DNA of 64,000 nucleotides from NCBI RefSeq assembly GCF_910592395.1, contig NC_088323.1, forward strand, positions 12,323,501-12,387,500, given 5' to 3'. How positions within the stretch are numbered: the first letter of the stretch is position 1; each line of letters starts with the position of its first letter. Below the pieces are notes generated by a model that worked only from the letters and a program-made list of their open reading frames with translations, was not told the DNA's origin and made no database searches. The translations under genes were made by a program, and so were the position numbers. Shown here one piece after another: positions 6,967 through 62,270 of the stretch. The DNA comes from Lineus longissimus (taxonomy: Eukaryota; Nemertea; Pilidiophora; Heteronemertea; Lineidae).

Positions 6967-7437
6967 CTATCTCCTCTTCTGGTATCTGCGGTCCATCCAT
7001 CCATTCCTTTCTTTCAGTTCCTTCCAATAGTTTTTGTAGAGTTTTTTTCTAATCGTACTATTTCTCTCAGGTTTTCTTGGCTTGGCAGGTTGCCCTTCTC
7101 CCAGCCAACGTTTAGGGTGTGTGGTGACACAGGGTACAGATAAACACACTCTACATTCTCCATCTCTGAACTCCTCCTCTTCATCATCATCATCATCATC
7201 AGGAAGGACTTCTTCTTGGACTTGTGCTTGGTCACCTTCATTGACTACAGCACCAGCTTCAGCTACACCATCAAAACATTAATTGGCATCTCCAACTGCA
7301 ACACTTTCTCCATCTCCTGTCACATCTTTCACTTCAACAACTGCAGTATCAACATCAAGGTCTTGACACTGCATAAAAATCCCAAAAAGTTCAAACTGAT
7401 CACGGGTTAGTTCCAGTGTATAAAGTTTTGCATCCAT
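6967..7437 (-). pseudogene. ORF2-type small cysteine (zinc-like) protein, copy C, broken
   Basis: Read on the minus strand from ATG at 7437-7435, this resembles the ORF2 proteins at 49070-49726 and 59755-60396. It has a similar N-terminal start (LTRDQFELF against LTNEQREAI), an acidic linker of Asp and Glu runs, then C-x2-C-x4-C and the motif PCVTTHPKRWLGEGQP followed by NSTIRKKLYKNYWKEL. One TAA stop (7279-7281) interrupts it, and the conserved C-terminal REVMP block is not recognisable. No transposase ORF lies upstream on this strand, since a Harbinger element begins at 7712. It is most likely the remnant of a third element of the same type. Confidence 0.72.
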
Positions 7438-8696: not shown

Positions 8697-9636
8697 TTCA
8701 TATGTGATGCACTCAGAGCCAAGATCGGTAAGCAGCATACACAGATGAGGCGGGCTATCAGTACTGATTGACGGGTAGCGATAACTCTCTGGAAGTTGGC
8801 TACAAATGCGGGTTGTCGAACAATTGGACATCTTTTTGGAGTGGCACAGTGTACTGTCGTCAGAATTGTCAACGAAACAAGCAAGGCTATAGTCATGGTT
8901 CTCTTTGACAAGTTTGTACGCTTGCCAACTAAGGATGAATTGAAACGTACTGTCGAGTAATTCCGTGTCAAATGGGGATTCCCACAATGTTTTGGTGCTG
9001 TGGATGGGTCGCACCTAGAAATAACTGCACCAAGAGAGAATCCAGTTGACTACTTTTGTAGGAAACATCACTACAGTATAATTCTGCAGGGTGTTGTAGA
9101 CGCTGACTATAAGTTTATCGATGTGAATATTGGCAATCCTGGAAGTGTTCATGATGCCAGAGTTTTTGCTTTGTCAAATATATATAGGAAAGCAGAAAAT
9201 GGTGAACTATTTCCAGATGACTGTCAGTGGACTGAGAACATAACTGATGTAGAAATTCCTTTGCTTCTGCTTGCGGACAGTGCCTATCCCTTGCTCCCAC
9301 GGTGTATGAAGCAATACCCAGACAATGGGAGACTGACAAGAGAACAAGCTCATTTTAAATACCGACTCAGCCGTGCAAGAATGGTGGTAGAAAATGCATA
9401 TGGACGCCTGAAAGGGCGTTGGAGAATTTTACTTAAGAGATGTGATGTTACCATCAAGAACATGAACAACATAGTGGCATCACGTGTGTTGCTTCACAAC
9501 ATTTCAAGAAGAGGTGGCTTGAAGACGTTCCAAATAATGATGACAATGACAACCCTGCCTGTAGGTGTAGGGATGACACAAATGCTGTTCATATCAGGAA
9601 TGCATTGAAAAGCCACTTCAGTGAAAATGGACAGTA
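8697..9636 (+). pseudogene. PIF/Harbinger DDE transposase, broken
   Basis: One frame starting after a splice acceptor at 8696 encodes the helix-turn-helix block VAITLWKLAT, TIGHLFGVAQ and VVRIVNET, then the nuclease core. The catalytic triad is visible as Asp in AVDGSHLEI (about 9000), Asp in LLLADSAYPLL (about 9275) and Glu in VENAYGRLKGRW (about 9390-9425). Breaks are TGA at 8769-8771, TAA at 8958-8960, and a frameshift near 9513 after which the other frame ends in IRNALKSHF and a stop at 9634-9636. The enzyme would cut and rejoin the Harbinger ends together with its Myb partner. The family is certain; the upstream exons are not located. Confidence 0.93.
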
Positions 9637-20039: not shown

Positions 20040-21798
20040 ATGCCAGATGGACAGGAAAATGAAGATGACATTGGTCCACCAAAGAAAAAGTACAAAAAGA
20101 ACAACCCAGAGACTGTGAAACGTTACAATGAATCTAGGAAGGATAAGCCAAAGCTGCCAACCGGTAATGTTAGCTTTTGTGCCAATTCAGATGAAGGCAA
20201 AGAGGAATTAAACAACCTCATGCAAGAAATTAAGTCCTATCTTGGAGATGGAAATCCAAACAAAACCACAAACAATAAATTTCTCCTGGAAGTTTGACAC
20301 TTCTACAAAACCCATAACATAACAAAAAACAGTGATGATGCTGCTGATCACATGAAGGACTGGGTGGAGTCAACCACCAGTAAAAGATTTGCGGACCTAG
20401 AGGCTTTAAGGGAACAACTATTTCTCACAAGTGTGAATGGTATCAAGGAACTATTCTTACTTAGGGACAAGCACCAGACGGTCTGTCAGGATTCATTAGA
20501 CATTGACTACATAATGAGTGGACACATTGCGTTGACAACTTTCAAATGTTCTGCCTCCCATTCATTTAATTGGATTTCTACACCCTATCTTGCAGACAAG
20601 GGACTAGCAAATTACCGAATGGCACATGGCTATGCCGTATCTGGTATTTTGCCAAACCAGTACATCTGATTTTGCAAGGCCGCTGCGATAGGGTGCCTAG
20701 GTGAGGAATACCTAAACACCATCTTTGAAACATACGGATATCGTCAAGTCATCGAGGAGGTGAAACAGGAGAGCTGCACAGAAGCCCTTCAAGAAGAAAT
20801 CGAATCATACGACGAGGATTATGGAGGAATAAACATTCTCAGTGACGCAAGCCATGGGACACGCAGAAATGCCAAAGATGCTTCAGTAGTATGCATTGGA
20901 TGCAACTCACATAAGGTTTTGGTTGATGTCCATGTCACCAAAGATGATGATCCCTGCCCCCAGCGACATGAAATGTTTGGAACGAAAAAGATCTTCGAGT
21001 ATTTCCATGAAAAGGGCGTGCCAGTTAAGAAACACTGTCATGATCTGAACAAGCCGATCAACAAATACATCAGGGAAAATCAGCCAGGAACAATATCGAA
21101 CAATGATACATGGCATGCTTCAAAGGGAGTAACCACTGACATCTCGAAAATTACAAAAGGGTTAAAAAGAGAAAAAAAACAAACTATGGCATCCAGAATT
21201 AGCTGATAAGGCTGCTAGTATAAGAACCCATACTTATTGGTGCATGAAAAATTGTGGACAAAATGCAGACAAGCTTACGTCATCTATTATGAATATTGTG
21301 GAACACTACAAGAACATCCACGACAACTGTGACCCTTCTTCAAGATGCAGGACTGATTCCCACTACGTTCCTTCAAAAGAAATTATCAAAAGTGAATTAG
21401 CAATCAATCTCCTCACACAGAAACTGAAATCACTTGAAGAAGTGTGTAAAAATACAAAAGACTTTGTATTCTGTATGGACACATATTATGTGGAAAGTTA
21501 CAACAATGCGATGCTACAGTATCATGATAAGCGTGTGGTATTTTCGGATAAAATATGTGGAATGCGGGCAAACCTTGCAGTGATGGACTGGAATGAGCAT
21601 GTTGGTCGGGAGCACACCTCATCAAGAACAATCATGGATATACGCAATCCAAGGCGGCAGGTGCAAATCCGTGTGAAAAAGAGAAAGTCATATCAGTTTT
21701 GGGACATTATCTGGGAGAAATTTACAATGAGGAGACTTTCCCTTTATACAATGTCTATAAACACCCCCTGCCATTGGACTGGCCCAATCTGTGAGTAG
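20040..21798 (+). pseudogene. Kolobok-related DDE transposase without THAP (ORF1 type), copy D, broken
   Basis: Similar throughout to the 47224-48981 protein. It has a basic N-terminus (PPKKKYKKNN), a NVSFCANSDEGKEELNNLM block matching the helix region of the other copies, the first catalytic Asp in LSDASHGTRRNAK, then RHEMFGTKKIF, HCHDLNKPINKYI, NDTWHASKGV, and Glu in DTYYVESYNNAMLQYHDKRV. It ends with the FWDIIWEKF block. Stops at 20295-20297 and 20667-20669, and a frameshift near an A-run at 21173-21180, inactivate it. No ORF2 follows, and its inverted ends were not found. It begins about 200 bp after the Sailor gene. Confidence 0.83.
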
Positions 21799-42668: not shown

Positions 42669-43940
<1,272 letters not shown>

Positions 43941-44550
43941 AGGGTGACATAGACGGGGAAATGTACACCACCGGATACAGTCTGTGCTTGACCAGGCATA
44001 GGTCAGATGATATCCTGAACAAGGCATCTATGGAAGCAAATCCAGAAAGAGACTTAACCTTTGAAGGGCACACTTACTCAGTGAAAAGTCAGTCCTGTGG
44101 GCTGTTTTCCAATTCAAAATAAAAGTGTAACCTCTTTAAATTAGTCTCACAGACTGAACCATAACACTCAACAGCCAACCGTGCCCACATGATGTGAGCC
44201 GAGAGCTGGGCTTAAAGATGAGCGAGTGGTGTACTACATTTTGAAAATTGTCTATCGTCTACGACATGTGACAGAACAGGATCTAGTGGACTTAATGATG
44301 AGGTACTATCAAATAAGGTGTCCATCAATTGAATCATGAGGGCCTGTTGAGTTATCCTCTTAGTCTTAGGCTATCGTTTTTGTCTTTTTTTACAGCCAAC
44401 AGTACAACCATGCACAGCGCAGTGTACAGACAGTACAGGCCGTACAGGATTGCAAACCAAAAACATGAGCATTGCTGCCTAACGAAACTGCAGTGGAATT
44501 CATACTACGATGTCATAATGTGACTTTCAAAATAATTTTTTTCACGGCCA
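43941..44550 (+). other. Spacer with a coding-like segment
   Basis: From 43961 one frame reads MYTTGYSLCLTRH then ILNKASMEANPERD and stops at about 44122. It reads smoothly but matches nothing I know. The remainder shows no gene. Confidence 0.25.
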
Positions 44551-45968: not shown

Positions 45969-47130
45969 GAGAGTTGAGCATTGATCTGGCAACATATGTT
46001 TAGGTTTTTTACATCTTTACATTAATACATGTAGCAGCAAATGGCCGTAGAGTTCAGTAATTTTTAAAATTGCCCTGGCAGAAAGCAAACTCTGATGTCT
46101 GATCCCAAATACGGAATAAACTATGAAGGATTCTAAGAACAATCAGATTAATGGTTTTCTTAATTCATTCAGGGTGGTGTTAAAATCACCCTGATTTATG
46201 TAAGCTTAGATGTATTCTCGTAATTGTGGAAGTATTCTTCAGTTTATTTTTCATTCCGGTTCAAAATCAAATTTCGTTTCATTCATTCCATGAAATAAGT
46301 TTAATTATACTTCAAAAGGTACCCTCTAAACCAACAAGCATTTCTCATATTTTTGGAATCAGGATGTAGTCATATGCATCTGTATAAAACAATAATTGTA
46401 AGTGAAGAAAATAAACAGTCAAGTTAGTTAAACCTACAACTTGCGTTCCGTGTGATGGCATAGTAATTATGCCAGAGAGGCTGGGCTTGGCCTAGATCTG
46501 ATAAACACTAGTGCTCGTTGATAGGCTAGGTGTAGGTAGCTTGTGTTCACGTCATTGGCGCCAAATAAACACGTTGCAATGCTTCTATACAAAGGATGGT
46601 TTTCAGAAAATAGGCCCTACATGTAGAATGTACTTTTTCTCTATTTGATTGCTTTCCCCTAGAGTATCTTTGGAATGCATTACATACATCCCTGTTTAGG
46701 TCTACCTAGACCTAGGCCTATATAATTTCAGACTGGCATGGCATTACTGTCAGGGTCACATCTGATGAGGTGTTACTATGGGAAAGATGATTCTAAGGCA
46801 GTAAAACAATTCTTTGAATGTGACATTTGGGTCATTTTTTCACTTATCCAATAAACACATGCAGTCAGTTCCTGATGTTGGATTGCAGGCCATGAAAAAA
46901 ATAATATTTTTATTGTCCATTATCTTTTACTGACCACATTAATTCAGCTTTATACTATGACACAACCATCTAACTTGTTAATAGAAATACAATATTGTCC
47001 TACCCAAGACTTGCAGAAGCCCCTTTTATAATCACTGGAGGGTCATATCCCTACCACTGTCCGAGTTGAGGGACAATAAACCCAAAAATACTTTCTTTTC
47101 CCTGACTTGACTTAGTGACAATCTGATACT
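45969..47130. other. Non-coding interval, includes 5' flank of the two-ORF element
   Basis: No gene. A small inverted repeat CAGGGTG/CACCCTG flanks GTGTTAAAAT at about 46171-46194. The left end of the element encoding ORF1 at 47224 should lie here, but I could not find inverted ends. Confidence 0.4.
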
Positions 47131-47223
47131 GATATGGCCTGTTTACCAAATCTCAAGGACAGTTTCCACAAAGAAGCTTCAGAGAAAGTTCAGTTACACT
47201 CAGTTCTAAACCAAGCAGCCATC

Positions 47224-48981
47224 ATGGCAAGTAATGCTGAAGACGATGAGACCCTTAATTTCATACGATTAAAAGAAATGCACAAATTGCAGAATCCAAG
47301 GAAAAAACGGCCATCCGATAGTCCAAGTAAGCAGAAGGAAAAACGGCAGAGAAGAAAGGAATCCGGCATTGCGATCAGCAAAGTTCGGGGGCACATTGAA
47401 TTTTCTTGTGATACGTCTGAGGAGAAAACAATACTAATGAACAAAATTGACCATATCAAAATGATACTTGGAGGAGGCCGAATTGCTAAGGTGAGCAATT
47501 ACGCCCTACTGTCACAGGTTTTGGATTACTATGTAGAGAAGAATTTAGAGAAGGACATAACTAAGAGAAAGGAAGAACAGGAAAGGGCGAGTGACGTTCC
47601 ACTCCCTGGATCGTACCATCATTGCAACGAAGACTCAACGGATGAGCCAATATTTTTGTGCACGCAATCCGCAATTAACAATCTTTTTAATCGTTTGCAG
47701 TTGCACAATTCTTCATGCTCCAAACCAATGTCTGTTAGTGGATTTAAAAATGAAGATGGACATGTTGGGACCATGGACTTCATGTGTGAAGCTAAGGTCC
47801 ATGCAATTCACTGGTACTCTTCTCCACGGATAGCAGGAGGGAAATTCTTAGTCGATGCTAGGATGCTACATGGACATATTAGTGCTGGTATCCAGCCAGC
47901 ACAATATGAACGATTATGTAAATCTGCCAATATTGGTAAAATCGGGGACACTGCCCTCAACACATTTGTGGACTCCTACAGACAGAGTGTGCATACAGTT
48001 GCCGAGGAATCCCAGAAGGATGCTCTTCTGGAAGAGGTTGCATCAAGTGAGGTCATTGATGATGGCATTGACATTATGACAGACGCTCGCCACTGTTGGC
48101 GCAGCAATGCTAAATTCTCAGATGTTGTTTGTTTGGGTGAAAATAGTCACAAAGCTCTGCGGGTTGAAACAATCACAAAAGAAGATGACAAATGTTCTCA
48201 GCGCCATGAAATGATTGGGACAAGAAGAATATATCAATATCTTGATGATGAAGCTGTACCAGTAAGAATTCATGCTCACGATTACAATGCCACAGTGGTG
48301 AAGTTCGTCAGAGAGGAAAGAAAACCAACTCGAAACGGGAACGACACATGGCACGCGACCAAAAATGTAGCAAAGAACATGAAGAAGAGAATAACACAGG
48401 GAGAAAAACGAGCCAAGTGGTACAAAAATGAACTATCCGACAAAGGTGCATCTATAAAAACTCATTTGTACTGGTCAATCAAAACTTGTAACAATTCTCC
48501 TGATCGACTTAGGGCAAGTATAGACAACATAATCCCACACTACCAAGGTGACCATCAAAACTGCAGTATGGAATCAAGATGCCGTAGTGATCCATTGTAC
48601 GAGCCATCAAAGGAAAAGATCACCACCCCAAAAGCTGAAGAAAGGTTGAGGAAATACCTCCAAAGTCTTCCAATTTACAAATCGGCTCAGGATTACACAG
48701 CTTGCAAAGACACACATTACGTTGAATCTTTCAATAATATGTTGCTCATTTACCATGACAAGAGGATTGGTGGCATCGGTTTCAACAGATACAGGATGAA
48801 CACCGAGTTGTCCATCCTGGATTGGAATGAGAACATTGACCGTCCTCGAACATCTGTGAGGCTCGTTGAAGAAGATGTAAATCACCCAAGAAGAATGACT
48901 GGGAAACCAGTTCATTCCAAAAAAACTTATTCATTTAGATCCATAATTTGGGAAGATTGGATTTCCAGATTTTACCAATAG
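47224..48981 (+). CDS. Kolobok-related DDE transposase without THAP (ORF1), apparently intact
   Basis: Open throughout. I prefer the ATG at 47224 (MASNAEDDETL) over the upstream 47134 start because the related copy at 58736 begins at the equivalent place; this gives 585 residues. A basic segment (NPRKKRP, KEKRQRRKE) precedes a helical block ending VSNYALLSQVLDYYVE, then Cys/His positions around GHVGTMDFMCEAKVHAIHW. The catalytic region has TDARHCWRSNAKFSDVV (first Asp), RHEMIGTRRIYQYL, HAHDYNATVVKFV (second Asp candidate), NDTWHATKNVAKNM, and DTHYVESFNNMLLIYHDKRI with the likely Glu. These blocks align with those of the THAP-Kolobok gene at 15378-17418, hence the assignment. ORF2 follows 88 bp downstream on the same strand. 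Confidence 0.82.
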   Translation: MASNAEDDETLNFIRLKEMHKLQNPRKKRPSDSPSKQKEKRQRRKESGIAISKVRGHIEFSCDTSEEKTILMNKIDHIKMILGGGRIAKVSNYALLSQVLDYYVEKNLEKDITKRKEEQERASDVPLPGSYHHCNEDSTDEPIFLCTQSAINNLFNRLQLHNSSCSKPMSVSGFKNEDGHVGTMDFMCEAKVHAIHWYSSPRIAGGKFLVDARMLHGHISAGIQPAQYERLCKSANIGKIGDTALNTFVDSYRQSVHTVAEESQKDALLEEVASSEVIDDGIDIMTDARHCWRSNAKFSDVVCLGENSHKALRVETITKEDDKCSQRHEMIGTRRIYQYLDDEAVPVRIHAHDYNATVVKFVREERKPTRNGNDTWHATKNVAKNMKKRITQGEKRAKWYKNELSDKGASIKTHLYWSIKTCNNSPDRLRASIDNIIPHYQGDHQNCSMESRCRSDPLYEPSKEKITTPKAEERLRKYLQSLPIYKSAQDYTACKDTHYVESFNNMLLIYHDKRIGGIGFNRYRMNTELSILDWNENIDRPRTSVRLVEEDVNHPRRMTGKPVHSKKTYSFRSIIWEDWISRFYQ

Positions 48982-49069
48982 TCATGGAACACACCATGGA
49001 ACCTAGTATTATCTCAGACTATTATATGGACCAGACTTCTATTCATTACCAAGAGGAAAGCATTTTGCA

Positions 49070-49726
49070 ATGGACAACAGAGAGCCTTGGCATATTATGG
49101 TAACTGAGGAGCAACGAGAGACTGTGAGGGCACTTTTTAACCACTACAACTGGGACCTTGTTGAGATTGAAGGGAATCATGCTGGGGGTGAAAACATAGA
49201 GGACGTAAATCAAGAGCAACAGGTTGAAGGCAGTGACGATGAAGTATTAGAAGAGCAGCAGGTTGGACTTGTTGGAGAACTAAATGATGATGTGTTAGGA
49301 GCCATTCCACTAGTTGAAGATGTTGATGAGGATGGTGTTAACCCCTTGGAGGCTGATGAGGAAGTGGCAGCACCCGATCCCGCCCCACCCATACCACCTG
49401 TAGCTGGGGCTATGGAATGCCAGGAGTGCTTTTGTTCTCCATGTGTGCTTCAGTTCCCTCAAGCGTGGTTTGGCAGGCAACATCAACCACATGCGAGGAA
49501 TAATGCAATTCGCAAAAAAAAGTACAAGTTATTCTGGAGGATGCTTGATCAAAGAGGGGCATGGTGGGATGACAGATATGTTCTAAAGAAAGGACAGAGG
49601 GCCAGAGATGCAAACTTTACTGTCTGGAGTAGGAGGGAGGTAATGCCAGATTGCGTGATTGACTTTGTCAGAGGATTGTACCCAAATTTACCTGGGAGAC
49701 CATACATGGGTCACAGGTGGCAGTAA
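49070..49726 (+). CDS. ORF2 small cysteine (zinc-like) protein of the Kolobok-related element, intact
   Basis: 218 residues, open from MDNREPWHIM to the stop. The N-terminus has VTEEQRETVRALFNHYNWDL, followed by a long acidic linker. The C-terminal third has CQECFCSPCV, RNNAIRKKKYKLFWRML and a conserved tail REVMPDCVIDFVRGLYP then GRPYMGHRWQ. Copies at 59755 and 7437 (minus) share this layout. From memory the tail pattern R-x2-M-P-x-C-V/I-x3-V-R-x2-Y-P-x3-G-x2-Y-x-G resembles the cytosolic zinc domain of P2X7 receptors. Function in transposition is unknown; DNA or protein binding through zinc is a guess. No homology search was run. Confidence 0.8.
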   Translation: MDNREPWHIMVTEEQRETVRALFNHYNWDLVEIEGNHAGGENIEDVNQEQQVEGSDDEVLEEQQVGLVGELNDDVLGAIPLVEDVDEDGVNPLEADEEVAAPDPAPPIPPVAGAMECQECFCSPCVLQFPQAWFGRQHQPHARNNAIRKKKYKLFWRMLDQRGAWWDDRYVLKKGQRARDANFTVWSRREVMPDCVIDFVRGLYPNLPGRPYMGHRWQ

Positions 49727-50952
49727 CGATTTTTATTGATTAAATCTCAATTCTGACTTTATTTTAGGAATATTTGGTGAATTCTATATTTAACTGATCT
49801 GTATATTATTTGGATTACACATGTTTTAACACTCTATTACGACTGACATGACACAACTTACTGTTGAATTGTGAAATATTATCATGTTTTTCATACAAAT
49901 AATAACTCTGTGGATGTTTCTATGATGGATTTCTTGATATAGACTTTGGATAAAAACTTATCTATGAATGATTTGGATACACATTTGGATATTAGTACTG
50001 GAAATGAGAGATTTAGGTAGGAAATAGATATTTATGCATGCTCTCTTTACTAAGCATGCCTAATGGTATCCAAGCAACAAGAAAACAATAATAATGTCAC
50101 ATGACATATTCTGTCAATCAAATTTCTAACTGATCTTTGAATTTGCCTATTTTTCTCAAACAAGTGTTCTTTTTGACTGATTGGGAATCCTACTACAAAT
50201 CCTTTTTTGGTTACACATACATTAGATATTCACGGAAAAGGGAATCACAGAAATTTTTTACATAGGGCAAAAAGTACTGAGTAAATCATGAAAACATCAC
50301 AAATTATACAGGAGCTCTGTTTTTGAATTTGCCTGGCTGCCATTTAAATACTTTGCCCACACCCCCTCCTTTTATACCGTGGCTGTAGGTTTAATAAAGA
50401 CCCAATTGACAGTAGCGGCTACTGGCAACCTGGGTGATGCATTAGTCTGATAATGGGCATTATCAGCGGTGGCCTGATTGGCTGTTCCTGTTTGATGTGC
50501 AGCTGACATATTTACAGGTGACATCACTCCCGGGAAATTGGCACATGGTTTCTTGTCTTACATTGGGCTTCATACACAATATGATGTGGGGTTTTGTTTT
50601 AAGATGTGGGGTTGTGTTTTATGAATTAAATAGCCATTAGGTCATGAACTTGAGCATTCCTGTCTAAGAGACGGAAAGGCCAAAGTAAACTCACAGTTTC
50701 GTGTCTTAGTCATCAATAATACTTGTCCCAAGACATACTACATTTTGTTCTGTTTTGCATGGTTTAGAAACAGAGAAATACCTTGGTAATATTTCTGAAG
50801 TTAGTTGCTGTGCGCATCTTGGTGCAAAGTTACAGGGTGACTAACTCTTCTTGGTACAAGATAACATTTGGTGATGATCTAGGTGGAAAGGACCATTAAA
50901 GCGAGAAGGGGAGGTTACCAGTATCCCCAAATCTTTGTTACTTTCATTAAAT
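49727..50952. other. Non-coding interval between two elements
   Basis: Holds the 3' end of the 47-kb element and the 5' part of the element encoding the 58.7-kb copy, cut off by the BEL/Pao insertion. No termini were recognised. Confidence 0.4.
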
Positions 50953-50957
50953 GAGAA

Positions 50958-51678
50958 TGTTACGGTCAAATTCATATTACTATCTTTGTTGTTTATAATT
51001 AGTCTTAGTATCTGTCGGAAGCTACACATAATCAATTGCATCCGTGTTTAACCTTTTTAGCCTTTACTTAGAATTCGTACTAAATGTACTATTGGCCATC
51101 CTGGTTGCTTTGACATGTTTAAGTTAGGTTCATTTGTCACCAAGATAGGCATATGGTTTTAGTTAGCTTTCTGGGGAGTAAGGGCCTCTCCCTCACATGT
51201 TTTCCAGGGAAACAGGAATATGACTAAACGAGTTTTTGTTTGAACTTTCTATAGTATTTTCTAATTAGTATCAGTGAGGCTAGAATCATCAAGGCGGCAA
51301 GACGTGCCCCTTTTCTTTGTTTGGACAGAAGGTCCAAACTATGTATAAATTTGCCTAGTAAACCCAGCTTTGTAAGTAATGTTACAATTGTCAATTTCTC
51401 GGTTTGTCGATTGATTCCGTAATTTTTAGGTAGTTATTATATGATATGTATTTAGGATTCTTTGTTTCAATTACAGATTGAACCACTATCACCATCATCA
51501 TTATCATCACACCACTTTGAAGTTCATCACACTTTAAAGACGTTGATCACTTGTATTGTAAGAAGTTGTGCGTCTCAATAAGCTGAATATTTACATCATC
51601 GTTGTTTCGTTCGTCTATCATAGGATAGTTTTGTTTCGGCAGCCTCACTCACGCATGTGGACATCAGCCAGGTCCACA
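50958..51678 (+). repeat. BEL/Pao 5' LTR
   Basis: Begins TGTTACGGTCAAATT and ends GGTCCACA. A TATAAA box at 51344-51349 is a candidate promoter. It is matched by 58009-58729. Confidence 0.96.
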
Positions 51679-52066
51679 TTTAGTTCAATAAAGGTCACAG
51701 GAATAATTCATATCTTGGAATACCAACAGAACGAGTGTTCTAAGGACTTCAATTGGTACTGTTATGGTTCAGTGCCCAGAAATATTGAAGGTTTCATCAC
51801 CGGGAACTTTCATAAATATCTTTCTTTGGAGCTGTTCAGTTCGGGACAGTGTTCAGGAAAGTTTCATCTATTCACAAGAAGTGTGAATATCTTCGATGGG
51901 TACTGTGATAGTGGCTAGGAATATTGAAGGTTTAGTCTCCGGGAGTTTATGACTTTCATGTTGGAGCAAGTTTGTGACAGTGTTCAGTTTCGTCTAATCA
52001 CAAGTGTGAACAAGTTGGACTAGTACTGTTATCAGTTGTGCAGTTGCGAAAGGAACAGTGTTCAAG
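51679..52066 (+). other. BEL/Pao leader with internal duplication
   Basis: Untranslated leader between the 5' LTR and the Gag start. Two diverged copies of a segment containing GAATATTGAAGGTTT or its close variant lie about 143 bp apart (near 51757 and 51901). No primer-binding site could be assigned with confidence. Confidence 0.6.
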
Positions 52067-55000
52067 ATGGCAACAGCAAATGTCGCAGCCGTGATCAAGG
52101 AATTGAAGAAAAGGCGATCTTATGCCAAGGGACAGTTAACTAGGAAGTTGAACAATTTGTATGATTTGATGTCGGATCCCAACTACCATGACAACGTAGA
52201 AAGGATTACTCTAGCGGCCAAGGAAGTAGGTAATCATTTTCAATTCTTTTCGGCATGCCATAATGGGTATCACCAAAGTTTAGTTAGCCCTCATGATATA
52301 GAATTGTCCCAAGATTATTCAGATGGGGTTGTTCGCGTCATGTGCCGGTATCGAGATGACTTGGCTGGCTGGATTGATGGTCAGCTTGGCGGGAGACTGT
52401 CGCCGGCAGTAGGTAGTGTTAGTGAAGACAATGCAGATGATGACCAACCTCAGGAGTCTGTTTCAAGCATTAGCTTGGGTGACGGGTCTTCCAGTCGCGT
52501 GTCTGGGTCCAGTAGAAGCTCGACCGCGACGAAGGCTCGTATGGCGGCGGCTGCTGACAGGGCAGCTATTGACATTGAAGCCTCAATACTAGAAGAGCGC
52601 CAGGCCTTAGAAAAGCAAGAGTTCGAGTTGTCCAAAGAGAGGGAAAGGTTGGAATTGAAAGTAAAGTTAGCAAAAGCACGGGCGAAGGAAGATGTCTGTT
52701 CGTCTATGAGTGATAAAGGCTCAGTTGCTTCAAGTAAGCATTCCAATAAGAGTTTCGATATAAACCGACCATTGGAAACTTCTAAGTTGAGTCCGTTTAC
52801 TACTCCCTTTGAAACAAAAGCTACAAGTAGGCCAAACCAATTAGTGAAGTGTGCTGAGTCAGCCGACCCACGTCAGTCAACCCCAGTAGGTGTTGAATCA
52901 GGACGCATGCATGTTGCCGACATTCCAACAGAGACTGCGATAAGTGTGCCAGATGACAGCAGGCCCAATGTAGCTGCAGAGGTAAACAACGAGGCCAGAG
53001 ATGTTTACACGGCTCAGCAGGGTGAGGTCACGGTATCACAACAAGATAACTCAGCATTACCAGATGCATTGTTGCAAGTACTTGATCAAGGGCAGAAGCA
53101 GCAGCAGTTGCTATTAGACACCATCCAACTACCCAAGGTTGATCTTATGACTTTTGATGGTGATCCATCTAAGTACTGTCTCTTCATTCGGTCCTTTGAG
53201 AATTCGGTTGATAAACAAACCATAGATGACAGTATCAAGCTAGGTAGGCTGGTAAGGTTTTGTACAGGAAAAGCCAGGCGTGTTATAGAAAGCTGCTCTG
53301 TGAAGGAGCCTACTGTACGATACCAGCTGGCTAGGAAGCTGTTAAAAGAGAGGTTTGGAAATGATTTCGTCGTTTCTCAAACATGGGTGGACAAAATTGT
53401 CAATAGAAAACCGGTTAGGGCCTCTGATCCAGAGGCACTTAGAGATTTGGCCGACGATATGTTGAACTGCGTTGAAACGTTGACAGCTATGAAAAGGTTG
53501 GACAGCTTTAATGAAACTAGCCTGGTTCAGATCGTTGAGAAATTGCCACTTTATTTACAAAATAAGTGGAAAGCGGTGGTACGTAAAATCAGACAGGAAA
53601 ATAGATCGCCTACAATTCAGGACACTCTGATATTTGTCTCCAGAGCAGCAGAGGAGGCTAATGATCCAGTATTTGGTAAGTGCGGCACAGCTTCAAAGGA
53701 TACCAGGGATGATAGGCAAGCCAAAGGGGCCAAAGATAAGTCAAAGTCATTTGGAAAGACGACATTTGGTACTCAAGTAGGGCCAGAACCCACACAGAGA
53801 CCTAAGAAGTGTGCAGCATGTGATGGTAACCATTGGCTGCACGCGTGCAACAAGTTCAAGGCCATGCAGCCGCCAGATAGACTGGAATTTGCGAGAAAGG
53901 CAAAGCTTTGCACGAACAGTTTCCGTTCAGGAAACTTTGCTAGCAGATGTTCAAAGCCCAGTTACTGCGACATAGCTGGATGTGAGCGGAAGTACAGCAA
54001 GCTCTTACATTTTGATAAAACCAAACCAACTACCAATCCTGATGAAGAGAGAGGACGACCCGTTCCACGAAATGCTGATGCACGACCACCGAACATTGAG
54101 AATCATTGTTCCTTCAATGGGGCCGGAGTCACGCGGAGTCGTGTGGCATTGCCAATAGTGCCTGTGAAGGTGAGAGGGCGTGGCAGCGTAGGATACGTCA
54201 AGACCTATGCACTCTTGGACAGCGGGTCAAACAGGACTTTCTGTTCAGATGACTGGGCCAGTCAGTTGGACCTGTCAGGCATGAAGAAACAAGTAGAGGT
54301 AACAACACTAGAGAAGAAGAACAGTGTGATGGAAGCAGCTATATACCAACTTGATGTCACAGACCTCGACGAGAATGAAGTCATAGAGTTGCCGAGCGTT
54401 GTTGCTAGACCAGATCTGCATATCAGCCCGACCATCATGACGAGCCAAGACTTAGACAAATATTCCCACCTCGAGAAGTTGGAGTTTCCTGTGATTGAGC
54501 CTCGTAAAGTGCAACTGCTGATTGGCCAAGATGTTCCTGAAGCTTTAATGCCAGTGGATATCAGAAGAGGCGCAAGGGGTGAGCCTTATGCAACCAAGAC
54601 TGCATTGGGTTGGACACTGAATGATCCGATAGGCGTCGACAGACATGCAACATCTAATTTCATTGGTTTAACCAGTCATTGGGTCCAAGCGGACGTTAAC
54701 CTGCAGAAACAGGTCGAGAAACTTTGGAAATTAGAGAATCTCACAGGAGATGAACAAGGAATGTCTATCGAGGACAAAAGGGTAATCTCGCTTTGGGATG
54801 CTCGCGCTGACAAGGTAAACGGGCATTATCAGTTGCCCATACCATTCAAGTACTCACCACCTCACATGTCTAATAATTACAGCATGGCAGTTCATAGGCT
54901 GAACCACTTAGGACGAAAGTTCACCCGTACCCCAGACTTACACCAGAGATATAAGGCAGAGATTGCCACTTTGCTGGGCAAGGGCTATGCCGAGGAAGTA

Positions 55001-55390
55001 ACATTAGAAGAGATGAATAGAAAGGATGGCATGGTCTGGTATCTCCCGCATCATCCCGTGATTAATCCCAAAAAGCCAGAAAAACTTAGGATAGTTTTTG
55101 ATTGCGCCGCACAATGGAAGGGAACTTCATTGAATCAGCAGATACTACAGGGTCCTGACCTCGCTAACAAACTGGTAGGTGTCCTTCTGAGGTTCCGACA
55201 AGAGAGGGTTGCAATGATGGCTGACGTAGAGGGGATGTTTAACCAGGTATTGGTCCAGCCAGACCACCGAGACGTGCTGAGATTCCTATGGTGGGATGAC
55301 GACGACCCCACCAAAGAGGTGAAGGTGTACCGGATGAAGATCACCTGTTTGGCGGGGTCTGGAGCCCCGGCTGTGCCAACTATGCCTTAA
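52067..55390 (+). pseudogene. BEL/Pao Gag-protease-reverse transcriptase (first part, frameshifted)
   Basis: ATG at 52067. In order: an N-terminal helical Gag region; a Glu/Lys coiled coil near residues 180-225; the BEL-type Gag core (PKVDLMTFDGDPSKY) near residue 355; cysteine/histidine knuckles (CAACDGNHWLHAC) near 585; the aspartic protease site LLDSGSNRTF near 720; and the first half of reverse transcriptase (LRIVFDCAAQWKG, MMADVEGMFNQV). The frame is lost near 55340-55348 and a stop follows at 55388-55390. The expected downstream sequence continues in another frame, so this is a one-base mutation, not a natural boundary. Confidence 0.93.
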
Positions 55391-57780
55391 AGAAGACTGC
55401 GGATGATAATGCGAAAGATTTCACTCCAGAGGCAGTTAAAACCGTCCATAGGAATTTCTATGTTGATGACCTTTGTAAATCTATCCCAAGAGAAAAGGAG
55501 GTGATAGTACTTGCTGATGACCTTCGTCAGCTGCTGTCCAAAGGAGGCTTTCGGTTGACAAAATGGGTCAGCAATAATCGAGCCCTGTTGAAAGCAACCC
55601 CAGACTCAGAACTTGGAAAAGGGATGAGAAATCTTGATCTTGATAGTGACGGATTACCAATTGAAAGGGCCCTAGGAATGATCTGGGATGTTGACCTTGA
55701 TCACTTTAGGCCTAGCATAAGTATACAGGAACGACCATCCACCAAGAGGGGAATGTTGAGTATACTGAGTTCTGTATACGACCCACTTGGATTAGTCAGC
55801 CCTTATGTTCTGCTCGTCAGAATGATGTTCCAAGACCTGTGCCGAGCCAAGATGGGATGGGATGATGATTTGCCAGAAGACAAACTGAGACAGTGGCAGC
55901 GATGGTGCACAGACCTGAAGAACCTACAGGAGTTCTCGATCCCCCGTTGCATAAAGCCAGAGGATTTTGGCGTGATAGCTGACTGTACTCTGCACCATTT
56001 CTCAGACGCCTCAGAGAGAGGATTTGGTAGTGCGTCTTACGTACGTCTGGAAAACCAGGAGGGTCAGGTGCATTGTGCCTTGGTAATGGCTAAGGGAAAG
56101 CTAGCTCCGATTAAAGTCACAACCATTCCAAGGCTTGAGCTGACAGCAGCTTGTGAGTCGATTAAACTAGACAGGATATTACGAAAGGAATTGGAAATCC
56201 CCATCAACAACTCTGTGTTCTGGACGGACAGCATGATCGTGCTGCATTACATCAAAAATGAGACTAGAAGATTTCAGACGTTTGTGGCCAACAGAGTTGC
56301 GAAAATCCATGAAGGCTCGTCACCAACACAGTGGAGGCATGTGGACACTGAGAACAACCCTGCCGATGACGTGTCCCGGGGCTTGATGGCTGACGAGTTG
56401 ATCGCCAACACCAGGTGGAACGACGGACCCGGATTCCTGCAGAAGCCAGATGAGGAGTGGCCACAAACACCAGCACAACTGCCGCCATCTGATCAGCTGG
56501 AAGAGAAACCTGAGCACCAAGTTTATGCCACTGATCAGGCATCCACGTGCCCAGACATAATTACCAGACTGATTGACAGGCACTCCGGATGGTACAAGTT
56601 GAAGAGGTCAGTGGCCTACATTCTGATATTGCCAAAGAAGCATCATGTTACTGACCTGGTAGTCAGGCAATACCATGCTGTCACAGGCCATTCAGGTTGT
56701 GAGCGGGTGCTCACAGAAATTCGACAGAAATACTGGATTCCAAAGGGCCGGATTGCTGTTAGAAGGATCATCACGAGATGCTTTCCTTGCAGCAAGAGAA
56801 ATGCAAAGCCACTGACGCAGCAAATGGCAGACCTGCCCCCTGATAGGGTAAATCAAGCAAAGGGCCCATTCTGCTTTACTGGTGTAGATTACTTTGGACC
56901 CTTCCAGGTTAAACGGGCAAGGAGCACAGTGAAGAGATACGGCTGTCTGTTTACTTGCTTGTCAACGAGGGCAATTCATATTGAAATTGCGGCGTCACTT
57001 ACAACAGACTCCTTCATAAATGCGCTTGTCAGGTTCACTAGCAGAAGGGGACACCCTGAATTGATACGGTCAGACAATGGGACCAACTTTGTTGGGGCTC
57101 AGAAGGAGCTAAAACAAGCCATAAAAGAATGGAACCAACAGAAGATAGAAGATTTTCTACATCAGAAGGAAATCCGATGGACTTTCAACCCACCGGCGGC
57201 CAGCAATATGGGTGGGGTATGGGAACGCCAGATTAAAACTGTAAGAAAGGTATTGAACGGAGTAGTCAAAGAGCAGATCATGGATGATGAAGGGATATCC
57301 ACCCTGATGTGTCAAGTGGAGGCCATCATAAATGGTAGGCCAATCACAAGACTTTCAGATGACCCCAATGATCTAGAACCGTTAACTCCGAACTACCTCT
57401 TGCTGTTTAGGAGCGGTCCCACGCTTCCCCCAGGACTGTTTGGGAAAGCTGACAAGTATAGCAAGAGACGATGGAAGCAGGTGCAGTACCTAGCAAACGT
57501 ATTCTGGAGAAGATGGTCTAGGGAATACCTTACCGGTCTACAAGAAAGACAGAAGTGGACTGCGGAAGTGAGAAACATCAGGACGGGAGACTTGGTCTTA
57601 ATAGTTGATGATAATGCGCCAAGAAACACCTGGCAGCTAGGAAGAGTCATAGAGGTGTACCCAGGAAAAGATGGCCTGATCAGGTCAGGCAAAATCAGGA
57701 CACAGCACACTCAGCTGGTGAGACCTGTCAACAAGCTATGCTTGATTGAACCTGTGGAGGACACTTCTAGTGCTTTATAG
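55349..57780 (+). pseudogene. BEL/Pao reverse transcriptase C-terminal half, RNase H and integrase
   Basis: The continuation in the second frame includes the polymerase active site FYVDD at about 55457 before the long open stretch from 55501. RNase H is marked by HHFSDASERGFGSASY (about 55996) and IPRLELTAACE. Integrase has an HHCC zinc region (HAVTGHSGCERVL, CFPCSK) and a catalytic triad: Asp in GVDYFGPF (about 56884), Asp in RSDNGTNF (about 57070) and Glu in GGVWERQI (about 57215). A BEL-type C-terminal extension follows. The frame is intact from 55501, so the only obvious defect is the upstream shift. Confidence 0.93.
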
Positions 57781-57998
57781 GCAGTCTCCCAATGTTATTG
57801 GCGTCCTGCTGGTCTGCATGAAGCGAACATCCCTATCTCAATATTGTCCGGTGATACCTGTTGGGCGCATGTCTAAAACTTTTGATAAATGATTATACTA
57901 CATGTATGTTTTTGGCGTAGAAACTTTAGAATCGATATTTGATTGATGAATCTGCCTTTTAGGATTAGGTTAAATGCTTTTTTTTGGGACGCATTTAT

Positions 57999-58008
57999 GG
58001 GGCCGGAA
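57999..58008 (+). promoter_or_regulatory. BEL/Pao polypurine tract
   Basis: A purine-rich GGGGCCGGAA-like stretch immediately before the 3' LTR, where plus-strand priming is expected. Confidence 0.55.
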
Positions 58009-58729
58009 TGTTACGGTCAAATTTATATTACTATCTTTGTTGTTTATAATTAGTCTTAGTATCTGTCGGAAGCTACACATATTCAATTGCATCCGTGTTT
58101 AACCTTTTTAGCCTTTACTTAGAATTCGTACTAAATGTACTATTGGCCATCCTGGTTGCTTTGACATGTTTAAGTTAGGTTCATTTGTCACCATGATAGG
58201 CATATGGTTTTAGTTAGCTTTCTGGGGAGTAAGGGCCTCTCCCTCACATGTTTTCCAGGGAAACAGGAATATGACTAAACGAGTTTTTGTTTGAACTTTC
58301 TATAGTATTTTCTAATTAGTATCAGTGAGGCTAGAATCATCAAGGCAGCAAGACGTGCCCCTTTTCTTTGTTTGGACAGAAGGTCCAAACTATGTATAAA
58401 TTCGCCTAGTAAACCCAGCTTTGTAAGTAATGTTACAATTGTCAATTTCTCGGTTTGTCGATTGATTCCGTAATTTTTAGGTAGTTATTATATGATATGT
58501 ATTTAGGATTCTTTGTTTCAATTACAGATTGAACCACTATCACCATCATCATTATCATCACACCACTTTGAAGTTCATCACACTTTAAAGACGTTGATCA
58601 CTTGTATTGTAAGAAGTTGTGCGTCTCAATAAGCTGAATATTTACATCATCGTTGTTTCGTTCGTCTATCATAGGATAGTTTTGTTTTGGTAGCCTCACT
58701 CACGCATGTGGACATCAGCCAGGTCCACA
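58009..58729 (+). repeat. BEL/Pao 3' LTR
   Basis: Same length as the 5' LTR, with about seven substitutions. It is followed by the GAGAA duplication, 6 bp before the ATG of the interrupted ORF1. Confidence 0.96.
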
Positions 58730-58735
58730 GAGAAG

Positions 58736-59740
58736 ATGGATAAAGACATTGACAACATGAGTTATACTGATGATAACAGAAATGATTTAGTTCGCTTTCG
58801 TGATGAAAATCGTCAGCTTCATGCTAGGAAACGAAAAAGGGGATCCATGAATAATTCTGAAAGAACCAAGCCCAAAAAGACCAATCTTTTGAAAAGCCAA
58901 TTAACATTCTATTGTTCAGACGAAAATGAAAAGGTTTCTTTCTCCAACAAAATGGACAAGTTGAAGTCAAAGTTAGGGGGTGGAAAATGCTCAATGGTGT
59001 CGAATTACAAATTTCTAAACCAAGTGATTGACTTTTACATCGAAAACAACAGCAAGGAGAGCAAAAAAACTGCTGAGGATAAGTCTACTGTCCCCAAAAC
59101 CACACCAGCTTACCAGCTCACAACAGACACGAAGGAACCACTGTTCATATGTGCAGGGACTTCAGTCAGAAATTTAATTGACAGGGTCCAGTCTCATGCA
59201 ATAAATTGTGGGAGCAACTTGTTCACGAAGGATTTCCAACGGGATGGACATGTAGGATGTATCAACCTTTTATGCCAAGGAACAGAGAAACATGCTATTC
59301 ATTGGACTTCATCTCCCCACATCAAGGAAGGACAGTTTCTGGTGAATGCAAGAGTGGCTCATGGGTTTTTTACATCAGGGGCCCTGCCCGTTCAGTATGA
59401 TAAAATTGTAGAAGGCAGTGATATTGGTGTACTCTCCACGGACAGACTAAACACGTTCATAGATTCCTATGCTCCCATAGTACAACAACAGACAGATGAA
59501 TCCAAGAAAGATGCAATAATGTAGGAAGTCGCCCTTTCAATGGCTAATGAAGTTGACGAAATAGACATTCAGACAGATGCCAGGCATTGTTGGCGCAAGA
59601 ATGCCCGTTTTAGTGATGTTGTCTGTTTGGGTGACCAATTACCGTGATGTCATTTGGGACAGATGGATGAATACACCATATCAACAAGTTGTACTCACCC
59701 CTCAATTTGGACTGCTCCAAGAAAATTGGCGGGTTTCACT
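58736..59740 (+). pseudogene. Kolobok-related transposase (ORF1), copy B, internally deleted
   Basis: Starts MDKDIDNMSYTDDNRNDL and keeps the N-terminal half: basic RKRKRG, the KLGGGKCSMVSNYKFLNQV helix block and GHVGCINLLCQGTEKHAIHW. A TAG stop lies at 59522-59524, after which the same frame reaches TDARHCWRKNARFSDVV. Then about 230 codons, including the second Asp and the catalytic Glu, are missing and the C-terminal YRDVIWDRWMN block follows directly (about 59640). It therefore cannot cut DNA. Its 5' flank was displaced about 7.8 kb by the BEL/Pao insertion. Confidence 0.85.
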
Positions 59741-59754
59741 TCATTAGGTAAAAA

Positions 59755-60396
59755 ATGGCTGTACAAAGGCAACTGATTTCTCTTCTTCTGACTAATGAGC
59801 AAAGGGAGGCTATTCGTGGTTTCTTTAATTTCTATGATTGGGACTATGTGGAGATATTAAATTCAACTTCTGGGAATATAAGTGATCAGGACAAAAATGA
59901 AACCAATGGGCCTACAAGTGGAGCAGATGTAAATGATGATCCAGGACAACCAGACTCACCACCACCACAAGCTGAGGCCATGGTCGATGGAGAGGACCTT
60001 GCTGAGGGTATTGAAGAGGGTCTTGGGCAGCTGCAACCCCAACCAGTTATAGCTCCTGTTCCTGGCACAGAAATGTGCCAGCAGTGTTTTTCATCACCCT
60101 GTGTGACAACCCATCCACAGCGATGGTTGGGAGCGGGCCAGCCACCAAGGGATGGCAATAATACAATTAGGAAAGGCCTTTATAAAAAAAAATGGAAGAT
60201 GCTTCAGGACAGGGGGGCCTGGAATCATCCCCTCTATTTGCAGAAAAAAGCAACAATACAACAGCAAGATAAGGCAGCAGATCCAACACTTGTTTGGACC
60301 AAACGTGAAGTGATGCCCGAGTGTATCTTGGAACTTGTCCGGAATCTTTACCCCTACCCAAAAGGAATACCATATATGGGACATAAATGGCAGTAG
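59755..60396 (+). CDS. ORF2 small cysteine (zinc-like) protein, copy B, intact
   Basis: 213 residues starting MAVQRQLISLLLTNEQREAI, with an acidic and Pro-rich linker, then MCQQCFSSPCVTTHPQRWLG, NNTIRKGLYKKKWKML and the tail REVMPECILELVRNLYP, GIPYMGHKWQ. It keeps the C-V-T-x-H-P motif that copy A has lost, making it the better example of the zinc-like domain. The frame is fully open although the neighbouring transposase is deleted. Expression would depend on a promoter that is now separated or replaced by the retrotransposon LTR. Confidence 0.8.
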   Translation: MAVQRQLISLLLTNEQREAIRGFFNFYDWDYVEILNSTSGNISDQDKNETNGPTSGADVNDDPGQPDSPPPQAEAMVDGEDLAEGIEEGLGQLQPQPVIAPVPGTEMCQQCFSSPCVTTHPQRWLGAGQPPRDGNNTIRKGLYKKKWKMLQDRGAWNHPLYLQKKATIQQQDKAADPTLVWTKREVMPECILELVRNLYPYPKGIPYMGHKWQ

Positions 60397-62270
60397 TTTT
60401 ACACACGGGACAAATTTATATTACTAAAAGCAAAAATAGATAGGAGCAAAAATAGGAGTGAATAGTTTATATGTATACTTGTGGATATTTTTGTTTGATC
60501 ATGTGATGAATCCCATGTTTCTTTATTTAAAAGCGCTTAAGTTTGTTGTGAGCCAATTACATAAGAAGTGTGGTAATCATTTTAATATGTCCTAAGTCAT
60601 TCAAGTTCATTATTAGATAGTGTTGTGCAACATGGACTCAAGTAGAAAGACTGGACAATTGGAGAGTTGTGGAAATGCTTGACAATTGGAGATTGGACAA
60701 TGACTTTGCAATGACTAGACAACTGGAGGGTTTGGTAATTGAGGCAAAGGCTTAGGCCTTATTGTGAGGCATGGTTGAAGTGTAGACTGTATTGGCAGTA
60801 CTGAGAGAGCCTAAAGGAAGGCAGTTGAGTTGTGCTTCCTTGTCAAATAACCTGGAGCTCCAGAATCCCTTTTCGGGGGATACTTCGTTGAAATCCGGAC
60901 TTTACAGTCGGAAGACATGATCGAGTGATCATCCTGGCGTTGGTGCCGCAATTCGTTGAACGTATGGAGTCGCTGCAGCTGTAACTCGGGTTACACACGT
61001 GTTGGAATCGGAACGTCTACATTCCGTATTCCACTTGGAACGGATGAATCCGTATTCATAAATTGCCTCCCAATTTACCCTCCGTGTTGCCATATCTGGG
61101 CCCTTATTTGGATTCGGACGTTATTCATGGATTCCTTTTGAACTGGACGTTTTATTTCCTCAGTTGCCATGAACACTGAACAGTGAACCCTACTTCCCCT
61201 GTGGCATGATATACCCCTGAACTGAACATTTGAAATCTCACATGCTAATCTTTCCTTAGTTTCAGCAGCTGTGAATATTGTAAATAATTTTTGTCTTAAA
61301 ATAAATTTTTGTGTTTCATTTAGGAGTTAGCTGTTTTTACAGAGAGGTGTCCAGTGTCGAGCAGCCGCTCTGTCACAGATCACTCTCAGTCTCATTCATT
61401 CACTCATTCGTTCATTTATTATAACTTACATAAGAGACAGGATTATTTTTGATGACCGGATCAGATTATTATTATAAACTCATATGGATTACTACGTTAT
61501 AAAGGTGACAATGTTGATACCTGTATCATAAAACATTTTAGAATTACATTGTGCAGTTTGGAGAACGGAAATACAAGTTTAGGTAGGAGTAATAAAGATA
61601 TCAGCATGAACCTGTGCTTGCATGACGAAACACATCCAGCCATGTGCCCATTGTTTACAAACATTGCCATGGATAGCAGCAGCCAATCAGAGCCTGGTTA
61701 GAAATTTCAACTTGGGTTCTCTTTTCATGATAGCAACTGTGACTTGAAATAAAAGCTCAGTAATGTCAATCAGATTTATGATTTATACGTTGACGAAAGG
61801 GTAACTTGGTCCTGGTATATTCATAAGTTTATAAAACCAAATCTATTCCAATCAGATATCTAACTGATGAGAAATCCAGATGGAATCATCGAAAAAGCCA
61901 GGAGCTCATTACAGTGTAATAACAGGCAACCATTTACATACTACCATCCACTCCCATCCTATTTATACTCCAACTCCCCCTTTAAACTGTATTGCTTCGT
62001 TGACCTTGTTTTATAAGTAGAGCAGTGGCAGCGACCATCGTGAATGACAGATAACAGATGCCAGGAGGTCGTTGGCAAAGTAACGGCTGTATCAGGTGTC
62101 AGCCCCAGCACACGCAGAGATAAACACAAGCTATATCGTTTTACTTCCTCCTTCAGTGAAGGAGGTCTCTCCAGATTCTGGCCAGGAGTGAGAGGCCAAC
62201 TTCTGAAGAAAAAGTTTATCACTGGGTGAAAGCAAGAATGTGCCGGTACTTCATCCATTGCAAGTTGATT
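60397..62270. other. Non-coding interval, possible decayed LTR sequence
   Basis: No gene. Repeated GACAATTGGAGA-like motifs occur near 60650-60700. A stretch around 61260-61370 has AATAAA and a polyadenylation-like context and might be a decayed solo LTR, but I found no matching partner or target duplication. Confidence 0.35.

Follow-up and report, generated by a model that had tools for sequence, protein, structure and literature searches.

ORF2 (ORF, open reading frame), a small protein encoded by DNA transposons in a 64,000-nucleotide stretch of the Lineus longissimus genome (hereafter, the window), appears to be a divergent, minimal KolX, the second protein that Kolobok-like, TTAA-targeting DNA transposons encode, and remotely homologous to the ballast domain of the P2X7 receptor. 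We put the probability of this reading at roughly three in four. It is based on the pairing of ORF2 with a transposase gene, the exact ends of one complete element (element A), the copy number, the co-occurrence with the transposase across the genome, low ratios of nonsynonymous to synonymous substitution (dN/dS) between subfamilies, and profile homology. According to the consulted parts of Kojima and Bao (2022; PMC9587614), Kol0 Kolobok transposons encode a second protein, KolX, that shares ancestry with the ballast domain of P2X7 and probably gave rise to it; KolX resembles residues 476-595 of human P2X7, and P2X7 is derived there from the fusion of a P2X4-like gene with KolX. The link between transposons and P2X7 is therefore already known from that source; the stripped-down branch with four conserved cysteines, to which ORF2 belongs, was not met in the literature searched. 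This branch is most likely a real, divergent and cysteine-reduced part of the published transposon protein family related to the ballast domain.

ORF2 and its transposase in TTAA-flanked elements

The window contains two intact ORF2 genes on the forward strand, ORF2A (49070-49726, 218 amino acids) and ORF2B (59755-60396, 213 amino acids), both coding for reduced KolX-like proteins in which an acidic N-terminal part (isoelectric point 4.1 in each) precedes a basic C-terminal domain (isoelectric point 10.0 in ORF2A and 9.7 in ORF2B). The two proteins are about 40% identical and have in common a C-x2-C motif, a further cysteine with V-T or V-L after it, a basic aromatic helix, and a tail that reads M-P-x-C-x4-V-R-x2-Y-P-x3-G-x2-Y-M-G. 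The C-x2-C...C segment and the basic helix are also present in a third copy, copy C (6967-7437, reverse strand), a remnant near which no transposase match was found within the window. The preliminary description of this DNA had all three copies sharing the motifs together with the tail; this holds for ORF2A and ORF2B, and the tail is limited to these two because copy C is interrupted by one in-frame stop and has no M-P-x-C.

ORF2A is part of a complete Kolobok-like DNA transposon, element A (46432-50390, forward strand), which ends in a 7-bp terminal inverted repeat, ACCTACA/TGTAGGT, and is flanked by TTAA target-site duplications at 46428-46431 and 50391-50394. The left boundary, TTAA|ACCTACAACTTGCG, was found again with other flanks in two copies (C15, loci L088/L071, and C1, locus L074), the right end was found again with other flanks in one further copy, and TTAA flanks both ends of the C15 copy as it does those of element A. 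Of the copies read of families g1 and g2, 8 of 11 and 8 of 8, respectively, have TTAA at the 3' end. The transposase gene of element A (47134-48981, forward strand) is intact and encodes a 615-amino-acid protein of the DDE type that matches the Pfam Mutator model PF20700 (E 1.6e-10). Aligned by eye with a degraded copy from the same window (copy D), it displays the order D, D, D-T-W-H (the DxxH motif), H-H-C-C (an H/C cluster), E, which agrees with the Kolobok transposase signature as defined in the consulted parts of PMC9587614 (D, D, C/DxxH, a zinc-finger-like cluster, and the last E). The same source gives 5'-RR...YY-3' as the Kolobok termini. Two 3' ends, that of family g1 and that of the element that carries ORF2B (element B), read CT and are consistent with this rule, but the g2 3' end reads GT and the termini of element A are AC...GT; because the termini of element A break the rule, we call these elements Kolobok-like only. 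As the preliminary description stated, such a transposase precedes ORF2 in two copies. It lies on the same strand in both, intact in element A and cut short in element B.

The arrangement is a recurrent one. ORF2B has 119 matches in its own genome (113 candidates, all scored), and 29 of the 30 best are free of internal stops; stops are present in several of the 119. The element A transposase has at least 73 matches (71 of 197 candidates scored). The genomic context was analyzed for 75 of the 119 ORF2 matches (78 with E <=7.4e-13, minus three second fragments; the 41 weaker matches were left out) against the 73 transposase matches, and a related transposase was found within 5 kb of 55 of these 75 places, compared to a mean of 0.2 and a maximum of 2 in 200 trials of random placement, a control in which the length of contig C3 was guessed. 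The transposase lies upstream on the same strand in 43 of the 55 cases, upstream on the other strand in 10, and downstream on the other strand in two; the same-strand gap is 74-162 bp in 29 of the 43 and reaches 4966 bp in the others. With flanks of about 1.5 kb, a transposase match was present in 27 of 30 ORF2 loci, the window copies included. On a tree of 17 ORF2 domains, the layout (same strand versus opposite or unknown) requires three changes, and a single strand flip is therefore not established.

Relation to canonical P2RX7_C proteins

The same genome contains many canonical copies of the ballast domain, which match the Pfam P2RX7_C model (PF20478) at no fewer than 150 places (150 of 187 candidates scored), with a best E of 4.4e-27 and scores of up to 102.8 bits. 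The canonical proteins have C-x-C-x2-C, C-C, a cysteine often followed by [VIF]-T, and P-x-C, and eight cysteines are invariant across the seven that were aligned. ORF2 retains C-x2-C, C-[VI] and P-x-C, with an insert before the tail. In the 17 ORF2 domains, which were picked from 24 rows after near copies and damaged rows were left out, four cysteine columns are kept in 16, 17, 17 and 17 domains and a fifth cysteine is present in 11; the fourth cysteine is absent from three of the rows left out (L065, L067 and L068). ORF2 thus has four conserved cysteines in place of the seven to eight zinc cysteines in three clusters that characterize the P2X7 ZCD and KolX. This suggests one zinc site rather than two, since four ligands would suffice for one site instead of the dinuclear site reported for P2X7 in the consulted parts of PMC9859053. 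The sequence C-V-T-x-H-P, noted in the preliminary description for ORF2B and copy C, is no hallmark of the family: it is complete in 3 of the 17 aligned domains, H-P is present in 4, and ORF2A lacks the motif.

One group of canonical copies (L010, L011, L012 and L019) begins at TTAA|AGTCGTATATCAGACC in four different flanks; canonical copies of this genome therefore sit in multicopy TTAA elements, as published for KolX. No transposase partner was found for the elements of this group, none of the 50 best among the 150 canonical matches has a transposase of the element A type within 5 kb, and for one canonical copy (L104) the upstream 3 kb contain no ORF longer than 82 amino acids. A search of the genome with the PF20700 profile returned mostly other lineages (114 of 272 candidates scored; their positions were set beside the canonical places by eye). 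Dozens of further P2RX7_C places comprise the tail only (profile positions of about 144-192), in frames of about 60-90 amino acids and many with identical scores; these are perhaps the last exons of a separate mobile family.

These canonical copies bear on the possibility that ORF2 is just a regular Kol0-lineage KolX that has been catalogued before. The type of element and the role of the gene are the same, and the published KolX is likewise tied to P2X7. However, the canonical proteins of the same genome combine eight invariant cysteines with high PF20478 scores, which the ORF2 proteins do not attain, and none of the 50 best canonical places has, within 5 kb, the type of transposase that accompanies ORF2. 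We consider this possibility unlikely, although it survives better than the other alternatives.

The evidence for homology comes from comparison with the canonical proteins. A profile of the 17 ORF2 domains aligned by hhalign with a profile of 12 canonical proteins (the seven mentioned above and five from 15 further loci) gave P 9.7e-6 and a probability of 82.6, and none of 200 column shuffles scored as high; the reversed-profile control gave P 0.17. Two other runs gave P 3.9e-4 and P 2.3e-4, and in the second of these none of 300 column shuffles scored as high. The two profiles are co-linear over an N-x2-[IL]-R-x3-Y helix and the tail. Reciprocal searches with hidden Markov models (HMMs) were made on 2856 ORFs of the fetched loci (64 of the ORF2 family, 40 canonical and 2752 of neither family). 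The canonical HMM scored 48 of the 64 ORF2-family ORFs above 7 bits versus 3 of the 2752 others, all three of which lie in canonical loci (L101, L093 and L005) and are probably fragments of canonical genes. The ORF2 HMM scored 22 of the 40 canonical ORFs above 8.3 bits versus none of the 2752. Many of these ORFs are near copies and not independent, yet members of different subfamilies (L064, L052, L024, L058, L057, L053 and L041) reach at least 10 bits. Against the tail of a bivalve canonical protein (L001), as few as 16 (ORF2B) and 14 (ORF2A) of 20000 shuffles scored as high as the real sequence. Taken at the sequence level, these results point to a significant but remote homology of ORF2 to the P2X7 ZCD/KolX family, seen only via invertebrate canonical members and not via mammals. 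The bivalve sequence, a canonical P2RX7_C gene with at least two exons (L001:2255-3328), comes from the assembly of a Bathymodiolus gill symbiont; the contig that carries it probably represents DNA of the mussel host binned with the bacterium.

Evidence against homology and the possible role of ORF2

A number of results weigh against our interpretation. PF20478 gives no match to ORF2A or ORF2B; it matches one of 15 ORF2 family members at E 0.17, its curated cut-off of 23.5 bits is not reached by ORF2, and the two window proteins are absent among the 150 places that it scores in the genome. The model recovers its positive controls, human P2X7 (E 7.2e-59) and the bivalve-type L001 (E 5.6e-17). 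Mammalian P2X7 alone gives no significant match: in the mammals-only hhalign run, 8 of 200 shuffles scored as high, and in pairwise permutations against three mammalian P2X7 sequences, 43-74 (ORF2B), 326-661 (ORF2A) and 436-1150 (copy C) of 2000 shuffles did so. ORF2 is not among the ORFs listed for an HMM built from three mammals, and decoys score higher. With the cysteines masked, the hhalign P value against the canonical proteins rises to 0.0043 (range 0.003-0.006) and only the tail aligns. The canonical HMM gives ORF2B only 8.8 bits and ORF2A only 0.3, leaves 16 of the 64 ORF2-family ORFs below 7 bits, and reaches at best E 8.5e-4 for a member of the family (2856 ORFs), and 18 of the 40 canonical ORFs do not exceed 8.3 bits with the ORF2 HMM. 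The AlphaFold model of ORF2 (from 15 sequences; a first model from 3 sequences, with a predicted local distance difference test score, pLDDT, of 37, was useless) has a mean pLDDT of 69 and a predicted template modelling score of 0.49, with block values of 84, 86, 59, 79, 87, 88, 87, 82, 76, 85, 68 and 51 from residue 101 on and helices at 135-152, 159-175 and 189-198. A Foldseek search of the PDB with this model yielded no P2X7 match; the sole match was a mitoribosomal chain at E 7.8. Finally, purifying selection on ORF2, which is the best reading of dN/dS values of 0.17 (ORF2B/L024) and 0.13 (ORF2A/L053) between subfamilies, is inferred from pairs with dS near saturation; closer copies gave 1.33 (ORF2B/L023) and 0.50 (ORF2A/L051), and two further pairs yielded no dS.

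ORF2A and ORF2B have no significant match among PDB sequences (phmmer and profiles) and none in PHROGs, and scans of viral contigs, of phages and, in a first pass, of genome contigs found nothing. The published tail motif is only weakly specific: both ORF2 tails agree with it at 7 of 12 positions, as do seven other places in the window, all of which contain a stop; in shuffled sequence, 120 of 3.2 million positions score at least 7.

The claim of the preliminary description that ORF2 is homologous to the P2X7 C-terminal domain thus survives in part. A remote relationship via the canonical P2RX7_C proteins of the same genome stands; a direct match is absent, and the zinc-binding part, with four cysteines against seven to eight, is not equivalent. 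The missing Pfam match is the very outcome that had been named in advance as refuting the homology. We retain the homology because, in our view, the canonical intermediates outweigh it. Alternatively, the transposon may encode in ORF2 a small zinc protein that is unrelated to P2X7 and has acquired its P2X7-like tail by convergence. This is what one would expect from the failure of Pfam and PDB fold searches with the window proteins, from the presence of only four cysteines, from the 0.3 bits of ORF2A, and from the weak match of one of the 15 family members to RING models (best E 0.0028). Convergence does not readily account for the reciprocal HMM counts, for the co-linear helix and tail blocks that no column shuffle out of 200 equalled, or for a genomic role, that of the second protein of a TTAA element, which is the same as published for KolX, and we regard it as less probable than an ordinary KolX. 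That ORF2 is a decaying passenger without function in transposition, as the broken copy C, the stops in several genomic matches and the dN/dS of 1.33 in one close pair might indicate, is very improbable in view of the 29 stop-free sequences among the 30 best, the dN/dS of 0.13-0.17 in two subfamily pairs, and the retention of ORF2 in same-strand and divergent layouts alike.

If ORF2 is a minimal KolX, it is most likely an accessory transposition factor. It would have kept the C-terminal half of the ballast domain (the N-x2-[IL]-R-x3-Y helix and the M-P-x-C...V-R...Y-P...Y-x-G tail) with only four of the canonical cysteines, which may together bind a single zinc ion. The acidic N-terminal part and the basic C-terminal domain would form a factor that works with the transposase and binds either the element ends or the transposase itself in the course of excision or integration. 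A multicopy branch that remains under selection next to its transposase with only about half of the zinc cysteines would delimit the minimal core of the ballast domain and would offer, in a small protein, a test of what this domain binds; it would also mean that Pfam P2RX7_C misses a branch of its family. A doubtful extension of this idea is that the ballast fold has its origin in a one-zinc cofactor of transposition, that canonical KolX added a second zinc site to the core retained by the four-cysteine branch, and that P2X7 fused the module to a channel, in which case the receptor domain would be a repurposed DNA- or transposase-binding module. The earlier suggestion that the receptor domain came from a mobile element has been in print since 2022 for canonical KolX (PMC9587614, as far as consulted); no data obtained here make the reduced branch the donor.

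Neighbouring features and known systems

ORF2B belongs to element B (50900-61981, forward strand, including a nested retrotransposon), which ends before TTAA 61982-61985 on the right and likely after TTAA 50896-50899 on the left. At the right end, 21 of 26 positions agree with the terminus of the related family g1, compared to 13 for the runner-up among 504 strings adjacent to TTAA. The nested element is a BEL/Pao long terminal repeat (LTR) retrotransposon (50958-58729, forward strand) with a 5-bp duplication, GAGAA, and LTRs of 721 bp each (50958-51678 and 58009-58729) that are alike at 714 of 721 positions. It splits element B directly before the transposase start codon, so that the transposase ORF (58736-59524, forward strand) begins right after the insertion duplication; this ORF is cut short by an in-frame stop, and similarity continues beyond it to 59635. 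Copy D, a third transposase copy (20127-21732), is degraded by stops and a frameshift and has no ORF2 match nearby within the window. The ORFs at 438-1991 and 9000-9608 seem, by eye, to resemble a Helitron-type helicase and a Harbinger-type transposase, respectively, and a reverse-strand frame at 43519-44073 contains a long arginine run, apparently over a triplet repeat.

In the literature searched on KolX, Kolobok, the P2X7 ballast and nanor, main texts in part and supplements aside, we found no description of the four-cysteine branch. The closest known system is the KolX of Kol0 elements (PMC9587614, compared by its published description), for which the consulted parts of the paper give no tested role. 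Like ORF2, it is the second protein encoded by a Kolobok-type element that targets TTAA, is related to the P2X7 ballast domain and has the tail motif. ORF2 differs in having four conserved cysteines rather than seven, in that its window members are missed by PF20478, in its acidic N-terminal part, and in that some subfamilies encode it on the other strand from their transposase. According to the same source, KolX-like proteins that lack most of the seven cysteines also occur in a few piggyBac families; these proteins, again compared by description, resemble ORF2 in this loss and in their preserved C-terminal similarity and differ from it in being located in piggyBac elements. The third system is the P2X7 ballast domain or ZCD (PF20478, PTHR36981, nanor), whose motif is defined in the consulted parts of Rump et al. 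(2020; PMC7016195) and whose zinc and nucleotide sites are described, in those of PMC9859053, as being of unknown function. ORF2 does not belong to a receptor and does not have the W-C-x-C-x2-C and C-C clusters in full; its tail places six residues, not five, between P and Y, and an extra insert precedes it. What the two have in common is the R-x3-Y helix and the tail P-x-C-x4-[IV]-R-x2-[FY]-P followed by Y-x-G.

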